NCBI GenBank assembly: GCA_937128475.1
Contig: CAKZML010000295.1
Coordinates: 1 to 36,773 of the forward strand
DNA: 36,773 nt
DNA from: an uncultured Chromatiales bacterium
GTDB lineage: Bacteria > Pseudomonadota > Gammaproteobacteria > Steroidobacterales > BM003
Reading direction: 5' to 3'
Both the position numbers and the translations under genes were made by a program. Under the pieces are notes generated by a model. It was not told the DNA's origin. It was given only the letters and a program-made list of their open reading frames with translations, and searched no databases. Below, one piece after another: positions 7,964-20,635 of this stretch (position 1 is its first letter; each line of letters starts with the position of its first letter).

Positions 7964-8155
7964 TCAGAAGTCGATGCAGCGACCGTTCTTTTCCCAATCG
8001 CCGAAACGGGTAGGTTCAGGTCCGGATCTGCCGCCAATTTCCTTGGCCATCCCCTGCTCACCAGTGGCGGCAGTTTCACCTTCCCGATCAGTCACTTCTG
8101 GCTGTTCGGGTGGGAGTTTGGGTTCTGCTTCGTGCTTTTCCGACATGTCGGGCAT
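7964..8155 (-). CDS. SDHAF4-like (DUF1674) succinate dehydrogenase assembly factor
   Basis: 63-residue protein ending in GPEPTRFGDWEKNGRCIDF, which is the DUF1674 signature shared with eukaryotic SDHAF4/Sdh8. The N-terminal 35 residues are charged and proline-rich, probably disordered. In eukaryotes SDHAF4 binds flavinylated SDHA and shields it until SDHB joins; the bacterial proteins are little studied. Its place immediately upstream of sdhC on the same strand, in a cluster that also encodes SdhE, supports the same job. Two starts are possible, ATG at 8155 or ATG at 8146, neither with a strong ribosome site; the conserved part is unaffected. Family call is firm, function is inferred from homology and position. 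Confidence 0.9.
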   Translation of the reverse strand: MPDMSEKHEAEPKLPPEQPEVTDREGETAATGEQGMAKEIGGRSGPEPTRFGDWEKNGRCIDF

Positions 8156-8237
8156 TCTGCCAGATCACCACTGCCTTTGCACCCCGAAAACCTATACACT
8201 CGCGGCATTAATTTCACACCCGGAGTACACTCTGGCC

Positions 8238-9101
8238 ATGCTATGGATGACTAGACCAGATTACGGCGTCATACGCGTCACCGGAGAGGATGCCCAGGAC
8301 TTCCTCCAGGGCCAGCTGACCAATAACGTACTATCACTGGCACCCGACAGGGCTGTCCGGGCCGCTTACTGCACGCCCCAGGGGCGCTCCATCGCGCTAC
8401 TGACCCTCCTTCCCCAGCAAAATGGTTTGTTAATGGTGCTGCCCAGGGAACTGTTACAGCCGGTAATGACCCGGCTGCGAATGTTCGTCATGCGCTCCCG
8501 GGTAACCCTTGAGCAGGCGCAAAGCGATGAACTGCTGATCTGCGGGAACCAGTTACCCGACCAACTAAACCAACAGGACCAGGTCAGTAGTGATCAACAC
8601 GGCCTGACCTGGGTTGCCAGTGCGGAACCCGCGCTGGCCTGGCGCCTGCTGGATGAACCGGAACCTGGACTGGAATTAACTCAATTCGATGCCAACCTGG
8701 CCAGGCGATGGCAAATCGATGCGGGCCTGCCAGAACTTGATGAGCAAAGCAGTGGCCAATACATCCCCCAGATGCTCAACCTGGACGCCCTGGATGCGGT
8801 CAGCTTTCGCAAGGGCTGCTACACCGGACAAGAAATCGTCGCCAGAACCCAGCACCTGGGGCGTATCAAGCGGCGTTTGTTTCGGCTGGAAGGCGATGGA
8901 AGTGCACCCAATTCAGGCACTAGCGTGGAAGTCGATGAGCGGGGAATAGGCCAGGTACTGCTAAGCGCAGCCCTGGGAGACGGGTTTTGTGCCCTGGCAG
9001 TCCTGCAACTCGATGCGGCCCAGGCAGGCTCGCCGATGAATATAGGCGAAAGCCGGGTCGAAACCCGGCCCCTGCCTTATTCGCTGCCCGAAACCGACTA
9101 G
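8238..9101 (+). CDS. ygfZ: YgfZ folate-binding protein (Fe-S cluster repair/assembly)
   Basis: 287-residue YgfZ/IBA57-type protein related to the T-domain of glycine cleavage. It supports maturation of certain Fe-S enzymes, apparently through tetrahydrofolate. The hallmark [12 protein letters not shown] is present, as are [19 protein letters not shown] near the N terminus and the aminomethyltransferase-like C-terminal barrel. The track ORF extends upstream to 7950, across the divergent SDHAF4-like gene. I place the start at ATG 8238 ([10 protein letters not shown]), where homology begins; GGAG lies 12 nt upstream and ATG 8247 is an alternative. It diverges from the SDH cluster, whose SdhB carries three Fe-S centres. 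Its stop shares a CTAG tetramer with the lysS stop. Confidence 0.94.
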
Positions 9102-10585
9102 GCCTCGGGGCGCATCAACGGGAACAACAACACGTCGCGAATTGACGCCGAGTTGGTGTACAGCATCACCAGGCGATCAATACCAATTCCCAGCCCGCCT
9201 GTAGGCGGCAATCCATATTCCAGTGCACGAATATAATCGTCATCAAAGAACATGGCCTCATCGTCTCCTGCATCCTTGGCCACAACCTGGTCACGGAAGC
9301 GTTCGGCCTGCTCCTCGGGATCATTCAACTCAGAGAATCCGTTAGCTAACTCTCTGCCGGTCATGAACAATTCAAAACGATCGGTAATAAACGAATCGTT
9401 GTCATTGCAGCGGGACAGCGGTGACACCTCGGTGGGATACGCGGTAATGAACGTGGGTTGCATCAACTCGCTTTCCACTGTCGCATCGAATATCTCGATC
9501 AGCAGCTTACCCGCGCCGAAACTGTCTTTCACATGCACTTTCAGTTTTTTGCAAACCTCACGCAGGTACTCGACCTCACGTAGCCGCTTGGGATCCAGGT
9601 CCGGGTTATATTTCAGCACAGACGCCTCGACGGTAATCCGTTCGAACGGCTTGGCCAGGTCTACGTCCACACCCTGGTAATCCAGCACCTGCTTCCCAAG
9701 TACCGCCTGGGCGGTATTACGAATCAGGTTCTCGGTGAGATCCATGATGTCCTCGTAATCCGCAAATGCCTGGTACAACTCCAGCATCGTGAATTCAGGA
9801 TTATGCTGGGTGGAGATACCCTCGTTGCGGAAGCTGCGATTAATCTCGTAGACACGACCCAGGCCGCCTACGATCAATCGCTTCAAATACAGTTCCGGAG
9901 CGATACGCAGGTACAACCTCATATCAAGGGTGTTGTGATGGGTGACAAAGGGTCGAGCCACGGCACCACCGGGAATCGGGTGCATCATGGGGGTTTCGAC
10001 CTCCATGAAAGACAACCCGTCCAGCTGACTGCGAATCGCCGCCAGGGTCTTGCTGCGAATCTTGAATGCTTCCCGGGTCGAGTCGTTGATGATCAGGTCC
10101 ACATAGCGCTGGCGATAGCGGGTTTCCTGATCGCTCAAACCGTGAAACTTTTCCGGCAGGGGGCGCAAAGACTTGGTCAGCGGGCGAAGCTCCTCAACCC
10201 ATACCGACAGCTCACCGGTCTTGGTTTTGAACAGCCTGCCACGGGCACCGATGATGTCACCGCGGTCCCAGGATTTAAACGATGCATACAGCTCCTCACC
10301 CAGGCTGTTCTTCTGCACAAACAACTGCAGCTGGCCGGAACGATCCTGGATCTTGGCGAAACTCGCCTTCCCCATCACCCGCTTGGCCATCAGGCGTCCG
10401 GCTACGCTTACCACCTTGCCGAGTTCATCCAGGGCTTCCCCGGAATGTTCTCCGTACTCGGAAAGCAAGTCATCGGCCAGGGCTTCCTGGCGGAAGTCAT
10501 TCGGGTAGGCGTTCCCTGAACTGCGCATCTCATTGAGCTTGCGCCGACGTTCGGCGATCAGGGCATGTTCGTCTTCGTGATTCAT
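9098..10585 (-). CDS. lysS: Lysyl-tRNA synthetase, class II
   Basis: Charges tRNA-Lys. It has an N-terminal OB-fold anticodon-binding domain (about 60-145, with [20 protein letters not shown]). The class II catalytic core carries motif 2 ([14 protein letters not shown]) and motif 3 ([12 protein letters not shown]) near the C terminus. The length of 495 residues is typical. The track begins at TTG 10591; ATG 10585 is better because AGGA lies 7 nt upstream. It follows prfB by about 45 nt on the same strand, the conserved prfB-lysS order. It converges on ygfZ with overlapping stop codons, leaving no room for a terminator. Confidence 0.98.
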
Positions 10586-10629
10586 CTGCAAATCCTGCGT
10601 TGATTTAGCCTGTGCAATCTATGAGTAGA

Positions 10630-18847: not shown

Positions 18848-19411
18848 GTGACAAAACGTTATCCACCCGACATTCCCGAAGACGAGGACACCGACGAACT
18901 GTCGCTATTTCGTCGCAGCGTTGCCGATGCCACCCCCCACGACCCAAAACCCTTCATCACGAAGCGTCCAAAGCCTCCGGCACGCGCACGCTTCAAGCGA
19001 GCCGATGAAGCCCAGGTATTGCGCGAAAGCCTCGAGGGCGAAAGCCTCCCTGGGATTCTTGATAACGGGGATCACCTGAACCACTGCAGGGAAGGTGTAA
19101 GCGAGCAGATTCTGCGCAAATTGCGCAGGGGTCGTTACAGCCTCCAGGCGGAGGTGGACCTGCACGGACTAACCGTCGCCAAAGCCCGGATAGAGCTAAA
19201 CGACTTTCTCGCCGAGTGTCGTCGGGAACGCTTGAGTTGCGTGCGGGTAATTCATGGCAAAGGCCTGCGCTCAGGTAACGGCGGACCAGTGCTGAAATCC
19301 AAGGTCGCGGTGTGGCTAAGCCAGGCCAATTTCGTTATCGCCTATACATCGGCCCGTCCCATGGACGGAGGCACCGGCGCCCTCTACGTATTGCTCGAAA
19401 AAATACGCTAG
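18848..19411 (+). CDS. Smr-domain endonuclease-like protein
   Basis: 187-residue protein with a C-terminal Smr domain (about 98-187): EVDLHGLTVAKAR, RVIHGKGLRSGNGGPVLK, and GGTGALYVLL. Smr proteins are RNA or DNA nucleases; E. coli SmrB cuts mRNA between collided ribosomes. This one has the DLHG motif of SmrB together with an SmrA-like length and IHGKG segment, so I give no symbol. The N-terminal half is charged and of low complexity, with LFRRSVAD near residue 21, similar to the helix that precedes the linker in SmrA/SmrB. Start is GTG 18848 behind AGGGAGGA. Its TAG stop falls in the left CTAG of the inserted element. Confidence 0.9.
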   Translation: MTKRYPPDIPEDEDTDELSLFRRSVADATPHDPKPFITKRPKPPARARFKRADEAQVLRESLEGESLPGILDNGDHLNHCREGVSEQILRKLRRGRYSLQAEVDLHGLTVAKARIELNDFLAECRRERLSCVRVIHGKGLRSGNGGPVLKSKVAVWLSQANFVIAYTSARPMDGGTGALYVLLEKIR

Positions 19412-19570
19412 GGAACCTCTGATTAATTCTGGACGAAGTAGATTGTAGGCGAAAAGATTCAGATTCAAGGCGCCAATCGCACGGAATAGCCAGCTATTGC
19501 GAAGATTGGCAACACAGAAGCTGGATTTTTTAGCCCCAAGAGTCGAGTTCATGAATAAATCAGAGGCTCC
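19412..19570. mobile_element. MITE-like inverted-repeat element flanked by CTAG duplications
   Basis: 159-bp non-coding element. The left end GGAACCTCTGATTAATTC and the reverse complement of the right end, GGAGCCTCTGATTTATTC, match at 16 of 18 positions. CTAG lies immediately outside on both sides (19408-19411 and 19571-19574), as expected of a 4-bp target duplication. Inside is a second inverted repeat at 19472-19510 (GCCAATC...AATAGC / GCTATT...GATTGGC). No transposase of useful length is present. The terminal sequence and CTAG target recall IS5-family elements, but I could not search. The flanking CTAG copies supply the stop codons of smr on the left and truD on the right. Confidence 0.85.
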
Positions 19571-20635
19571 CTAGGCCTCAGGCTTTGAATGCCGGGCTTC
19601 CCGGCAGTCCAGTAACTCCCGTAATACCGCGGTCGCGAAACATCCGCTGGGGAGAGTGAAAGCCAACTCCAGAGAATCATCTGAAAATGCCCAGCTCAAC
19701 TCCGCCACATCCAGGACCAGGCGCCGCCGGTCAGCCTTGACCCGGGAGGCACACAGGCCATCCACCCACGCCGAATACCCCGCGAGAACCTCCTGCTCCA
19801 GGGCCAGCGCCTCAGCCACCGGTTGCATACCCGACTCACCGGGCATAGGTCCCGTCGGCCCCACGTCATTGGAGGCCAACCTGGCGAGGATTTCCTCATC
19901 TACCGTCTCGGCCACGAACAGGCTCCGGGAACCCGCCAGCATCAACAATTCCCCGGGCAACGCCGTGTTCCAGTTTCCTTCACGAATTCGCCTCGCCAGC
20001 ACCTCGTTGAACAGGGCCGATCGGGCGGCGGAAAAGGCAAACTCCCGATCATTGCGATGCCAGCGCCTGCGCGGGTCGGACAACACCCGTTGGGCCAGGC
20101 CCAGGTTGCCCATATCACGACCGAAACGCTGATCACCGAAGAAGTTTGGAACCCCGCCTTTGGCGACACTTTGCAGTCGCGCTTCAAGAGCTTCCCGGTC
20201 TCCTTCCAGCTGTCTTATCACCAGGCGAAACTTGTTAGCCTGGTGGGTGCCACGCCTGAGCTTTCGGCGATGCGCGGTGGCTGCCAGGACCTTGAACCCC
20301 TCTGTCTCCAGGGCGAGCCATTCGTCGCAGCTCAATGCCCCACCCGCCAACGAGAAGTACTGCCGGGTCACGGCCCAGCGATCCTTCATCCCCGAGTAGC
20401 CCAGGTCCCGGCGCTGAATACCGGCGAGCCGGGCAATCTGCCCCGCCACCCAGGCGGTATTGCAATCAGTCTTTTCGATCCACAGGAGGATGTGCTCACC
20501 CTCACCGTCGGGCTCAAAGCCCAGCACTTCCTCCACCCGGAAGTCCTCGCTCTTGCTGCGCATCACGCCCGAGGCCGAGGGCAGGCCCAGGGCATGCACG
20601 TCCGACCAGGAGAATTCAGGATGTGTATCTGTCAT
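19571..20635 (-). CDS. truD: tRNA pseudouridine(13) synthase TruD
   Basis: Makes pseudouridine 13 in tRNA-Glu and a few other RNAs. Family motifs: DFRVEEVLGFEPDGEGEH near the N terminus, GYSGMKDRWAVTRQ with the catalytic Asp85 (Asp80 in E. coli), GVPNFFGDQRFGRDMGNL, and the TRUD insertion domain at about 160-310. Length 354 is normal. ATG 20635. It follows ftsB after 72 nt, where E. coli has ispD and ispF in between. The stop TAG lies in the right-hand CTAG of the inserted element. Confidence 0.96.
   Translation of the reverse strand: MTDTHPEFSWSDVHALGLPSASGVMRSKSEDFRVEEVLGFEPDGEGEHILLWIEKTDCNTAWVAGQIARLAGIQRRDLGYSGMKDRWAVTRQYFSLAGGALSCDEWLALETEGFKVLAATAHRRKLRRGTHQANKFRLVIRQLEGDREALEARLQSVAKGGVPNFFGDQRFGRDMGNLGLAQRVLSDPRRRWHRNDREFAFSAARSALFNEVLARRIREGNWNTALPGELLMLAGSRSLFVAETVDEEILARLASNDVGPTGPMPGESGMQPVAEALALEQEVLAGYSAWVDGLCASRVKADRRRLVLDVAELSWAFSDDSLELAFTLPSGCFATAVLRELLDCREARHSKPEA

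Follow-up and report, generated by a model that had tools for sequence, protein, structure and literature searches.

Why should a 159-bp element lie precisely within the stop codons of two convergent genes and leave both genes with a stop? Direct reading of the sequence at 19408-19574 of the window, the 36,773-nucleotide contig C295 of a 3.06-Mb draft genome (G000), gives CTAG, a 159-bp insert and CTAG, with an smr-domain gene ending in the left tetramer and truD ending in the right one on the other strand (Table 1). Our best explanation as a whole, which we hold with considerable confidence, is a MITE moved by an IS5-type transposase into YTAR targets, whose insertions survive because the stops they strike are restored, and whose fold is probably functional.

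Table 1. Features of the window at the occupied smr/truD junction and at the unoccupied ygfZ-like/lysS junction.
Feature	Position	Strand	Evidence or comparison
159-bp MITE copy	19412..19570	+ (plus = stronger-fold strand)	13 full genome copies; absent at sister's site
Left CTAG target duplication, holds smr TAG stop	19408..19411	.	Single CTAG in sister
Right CTAG target duplication, holds truD TAG stop (minus strand)	19571..19574	.	Single CTAG in sister
Left terminal inverted repeat, GGAACCTCTGATTAATTC	19412..19429	+	Sequence reading, TIR scan
Right terminal inverted repeat, GGAGCCTCTGATTTATTC	19553..19570	-	Sequence reading, TIR scan
smr-domain gene, ends in left CTAG	18848..19411	+	PF01713, E 8.4e-25
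truD, tRNA pseudouridine synthase D, ends in right CTAG	19571..20635	-	PF01142, E 1.5e-62
Unoccupied shared CTAG, convergent ygfZ-like/lysS	9098..9101	.	Same kind of site, no insert
ygfZ-like gene	8145-9101	+	Convergent with lysS, CTAG in common
lysS	9098-10591	-	Convergent with ygfZ-like gene, CTAG in common

A dispersed MITE with YTAR target duplications

The window element is a non-autonomous transposon (MITE). It is 159 bp long, under about 400 bp, carries no transposase and ends in 18-bp inverted repeats (GGAACCTCTGATTAATTC and GGAGCCTCTGATTTATTC) identical at 16/18 positions, as an earlier note made from the sequence alone had described along with the flanking CTAGs. The note's assignment of the left CTAG to the smr stop and the right CTAG to the truD stop agrees with the ORF ends and the domain matches, and the CTAG that it saw shared by ygfZ and lysS is indeed there. 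A search of the whole genome returned 13 full-length copies at 82-100% identity plus one partial copy, with more in relatives, and since reverse-strand matches fell at identical places the element is an imperfect palindrome. The flanks of the own-genome copies and of other loci show target duplications of the form YTAR (CTAG, TTAG, CTAA, TTAA), mutated in several copies, so that the CTAG target proposed in the note is in use but is one member of a wider set; outside YTAR the flanks have no obvious consensus.

The note had also reasoned that removing the element and one CTAG would rebuild a convergent pair sharing CTAG, and exactly such a junction exists in the sister genome G001, the closest congener (TruD identity 94%), where truD and smr meet at one common CTAG and the insert is absent. 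When the flanks of the remaining 12 copies were searched against the congeners G001 and G002, G001 gave insert-free alignments at nine further sites, the YTAR tetramer being intact in most (CTAG for C70, C59, C123, C122 and C278, TTAG for C81b, TTAA for C37 and C81a) and degraded for C135; C108 aligned free of the insert as well (CTAA). The C133 copy (L009/L025) is also present in G001 between the same flanks, indicating that this insertion is older than the split of G000 and G001, and the C305 copy, at a contig end, had no G001 match in the flank search. Dispersed copies with YTAR duplications, empty sites at which relatives hold the target only once, and autonomous elements with matching ends (L091 and L254-L271, from the same order but other genera) all accord with a MITE. 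That a degenerate palindrome came to lie between two CTAGs by chance, with no mobile element involved, is refuted by the 13 closely similar copies and the empty sites; we found no support for it and regard its probability as negligible.

The smr-truD junction of G002 (L285:2145-2284) holds a 131-bp intergenic insert, with a GCAACGCAGAAGC core and GAGGCTTCCTAG at its end, that we considered as an eroded copy and rejected: profile searches gave E values of 0.11-0.3 and the covariance model likewise gave no support, so we do not claim recurrent insertion at smr-truD. Length variants do occur, including a miniature form of 65 bp in G000 that has the two terminal repeats (L055:788-852, C81) and forms of about 27 to 340 bp in other genomes.

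Autonomous relatives and known MITE families

We scanned the terminal repeat in named genomes, looking for repeat pairs that were separated by 0.6-3 kb and had a duplicated flank, and found L091, an element of 1195 bp from a MAG within the order, with CTAG on both sides and a 320-aa transposase (PF01609 and PF05598; NF033581, IS5 family). Relatives of L091 are present in 23/396 genomes of the order, mostly 1.1-1.2 kb long with the same type of end and YTAR duplications, and IS5 is known to duplicate YTAR (PMC10359306). Two further repeat pairs, L044 and L168, were discarded as parents, no IS5-type gene being among their ORFs. The 4-bp YTAR duplication and the match of the MITE's ends to an element with an IS5-family transposase indicate that a DDE transposase of the IS5 family, IS5 group, very probably moves the MITE in trans; the likeness between MITE and IS is limited to about the outer 18-25 bp, and it is from these ends that we infer mobilisation. 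A search of the own genome and two congeners (G000-G002) for DDE_Tnp_1 or IS5-type transposases found none, which is a point against our best explanation. A parent transposase of the sort that the earlier note envisaged is probably represented by the autonomous elements in the same order, with none found in the own genus. Plasmid and phage records yielded no match to the element.

The element represents a new, IS5-related MITE family, of which we found no report in the open papers searched. It shares with the IS5 group GGAA(G/C)CTCTGAT-type terminal repeats and the 4-bp YTAR, as in the 1.1-1.2 kb autonomous elements of the order, but it lacks a transposase gene and its interior is an unrelated hairpin. 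ERIC/IRU elements are likewise short, intergenic and palindromic enterobacterial MITEs, whose RNA affects neighbouring mRNAs (PMC2229807), but ERIC is 127 bp long and TA ends are the usual form among such MITEs, whereas our element is 159 bp with GG...CC ends set in YTAR. NEMIS/Correia elements are also hairpin MITEs, and RNase III cleaves their folded transcripts (PMC2229807); at 107 or 155 bp they differ from ours in length. QMITE2 of Coxiella burnetii, another gammaproteobacterial hairpin MITE, lies mostly 3' of ORFs and can touch stop codons (PMC5896051), but it is described in one species and has variable duplications of 7-9 nt and repeats of 23-29 bp (PMC10969869), in contrast to the 4-bp YTAR seen here. 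Rfam, searched with the window copy and five other loci, returned no family at the gathering threshold, and a known RNA was rejected as the identity of the element because the sole hit was a chance one far below that threshold. With our own covariance model, which scores the window copy at 164.8 bits, we obtained matches at E<=1e-6 in 89/369 genomes sampled from the class, although the weaker ones may include other hairpins.

Stop codons as insertion targets

Reverse-complementing YTAR gives the same degenerate tetramer, and TAR, a stop codon, is therefore read on both strands; because the tetramer is a stop on either strand, the target duplication restores every stop struck. Among the 13 copies in the own genome, three lie on a CTAG common to convergent stops (smr/truD in C295, sodium:sulfate symporter/DoxX in C123 and AIR-synthase-type/DsbD_2-type in C133), four on a single stop and six on none. 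Conditional on the tetramer, three shared-CTAG copies compare with 0.126 expected (P = 1.9e-4), and with the discovery copy left out two compare with 0.106 expected (P = 0.0045). The background was 1.13 Mb (37%) of the genome, in which a purpose-written codon model supplied the gene calls for the stop-codon counts and non-genic CTAGs numbered 159 intergenic, 146 single-stop and 6 shared, giving an estimated occupancy of 3/~19 for shared CTAG versus 3/~826 for other non-genic CTAG. The excess over any stop is weak (7/13 versus 4.0 expected, P = 0.054), since half of the non-genic CTAGs are stops anyway. Only the shared-stop excess is strong, and the any-stop excess mostly follows where CTAG is located, this tetramer being scarce in the coding DNA of the own genome and about half of the non-coding CTAGs being stops.

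Shared stops are also struck elsewhere: by L050 in the congener G002, by L033 in another family of the order (CTAA, gamma-glutamyltranspeptidase/FG-GAP), and by 3/22 autonomous IS copies, which lie at a shared YTAR between two long convergent frames (DUF498/glycosyltransferase in L264, an unnamed frame/gyrB in L280 and an unnamed frame/TerB-DnaJ in L281). As L280 shows at gyrB, an essential gene can be struck at its stop. The idea in the earlier note that shared CTAG stops are safe harbours holds to the extent that the C123, C133 and L050 copies repeat the smr/truD arrangement, that the excess over expectation is large and that autonomous copies do the same; it does not extend to the 10/13 own-genome copies that lie elsewhere. 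Insertion is not always harmless, either. The C70 copy preserves the stop of the right gene, while the left gene, which at the empty site overlaps the right gene and ends in TGA, is deprived of its final codons and now terminates within the element.

Survival of insertions, a preference of the transposase and a benefit from insulation each predict the shared-stop excess. We favor survival, under which an IS5-type transposase would cut at YTAR and duplicate the tetramer, so that a target that is a gene's stop codon would leave one stop on each side, and a tetramer common to convergent genes would leave each gene its own stop with no loss; with both genes keeping their stops, insertions would survive and the element accumulate there. 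The transposase might instead prefer some feature of overlapping convergent stops, stop preservation being incidental, which we consider possible but rather unlikely; symmetric flanks, colliding converging transcription and supercoiling are tentative candidates for that feature. Such a preference would fit the far higher occupancy of shared CTAG (3/~19) than of single-stop or intergenic CTAG (3/~826), the low occupancy of single stops even though many of these should be harmless too, and the reported bias of IS5 toward certain DNA structures (PMC11677980), but the flanks carry no obvious consensus beyond YTAR, and a polar hairpin may make single-stop sites within operons costly, which would lower their occupancy under survival too.

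Insertion could also be beneficial, the hairpin being kept as insulation of overlapping convergent genes against read-through transcription, which it would stop or buffer. The smr/truD empty site has no space for a terminator, RNA of the insert has a strong fold whichever strand is read (-71 and -61.6 kcal/mol), and of the 12 own copies for which both neighbours are known four are in convergent junctions, against 11% under the null (p=0.034). However, we rejected an intrinsic terminator, as there is no canonical tail and terminator-like matches are near the shuffle expectation, the majority of copies are non-convergent, and the sister manages without the insert; we judge insulation unlikely, and less probable than a transposase preference.

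Survival through restored stops suggests a rule for a harmless transposon, namely that an insertion at a gene end is self-repairing where the duplicated target reads as a stop in either direction, and this rule would extend to essential genes such as gyrB. Because CTAG is scarce in the coding DNA of this genome and about half of the non-coding CTAGs are stops, target choice and host tolerance coincide. We noted in many older copies (L062, L017, L024, L054, L184, L304) a CCAG before GG and/or a CTGG after CC. These edges correspond to CTAGG becoming CCAGG at either end, by which the restored stop is lost, and CTAGG to CCAGG is the change expected from very-short-patch repair.

A covarying hairpin with a preferred strand

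Besides the stop-repairing target duplication with its shared-stop excess, the second noteworthy trait of the element, absent from the earlier note and unexpected, is a strand-specific covarying hairpin. The fold spans the whole element, at -71 kcal/mol (z = -9.2) on the plus strand and -61.6 kcal/mol (z = -6.1) on the minus strand. Across 63 aligned copies, 35/56 pairs carry compensatory changes on both sides, and 95.1% of cells are paired compared to 88.5% in shuffled and 35-43% in slid controls. A second set of 29 copies from 29 other genomes (median pairwise identity 71%), which was not used to derive the structure and of which a few may coincide with loci of the named-genome scan, is 93.6% paired where shuffles reach at most 84.9%, and shows 144 double changes where shuffles reach at most 53. 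The same strand folds better in 63/63 copies of the first set and 29/29 of the second (92/92), and in a strand-neutral register G-U sites outnumber A-C sites 41:20 in the first set (p=0.0099) and 43:14 in the second (43/57, p=1.5e-4), p-values that are only indicative because the copies are related by descent.

These data suggest that one strand is under selection, either in RNA or in single-stranded DNA form, and pairing retained on one strand by compensatory change suggests that the fold itself is probably functional; the full-length hairpin may act in either form. The strand asymmetry could, at least partly, be an ancestral asymmetry retained by descent. Over all loci, transcripts arriving from adjacent stops meet the minus strand, which folds less well, more frequently than the plus strand (44:23, p=0.014), a bias at odds with selection acting simply on an mRNA hairpin of the plus strand. 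The compensatory pattern might alternatively be mutational, with the fold itself unselected. Quasipalindrome correction by template switching, in which one arm is copied onto the other, is a known process at imperfect palindromes and would likewise yield changes on both sides of pairs. It predicts Watson-Crick pairs with G-U and A-C equally frequent, however, whereas G-U exceeds A-C in both sets and the same strand folds better in every copy, and we consider this explanation improbable.

Selection on the fold remains our preferred reading, and what leads a MITE to maintain such a structure, in RNA or in single-stranded DNA, throughout a bacterial class is a separate question from that of its targets. 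The broadest form of the argument, in which a class-wide gammaproteobacterial element, with one strand a functional 56-bp hairpin (of RNA or single-stranded DNA) that selection has maintained over the long term, persists via self-restoring, chiefly convergent-shared stops, we put forward tentatively, with the balance of probability somewhat against it; if true, such an element would leave host genes intact. As a further observation on palindromes, a second small one, GTAGGGTGC...GGTGCGTAAAACRCACCCTAC, is nested inside a 194-bp copy in G002 (L050:1320-1371) and occurs again at L340, beside the C133 orthologue.
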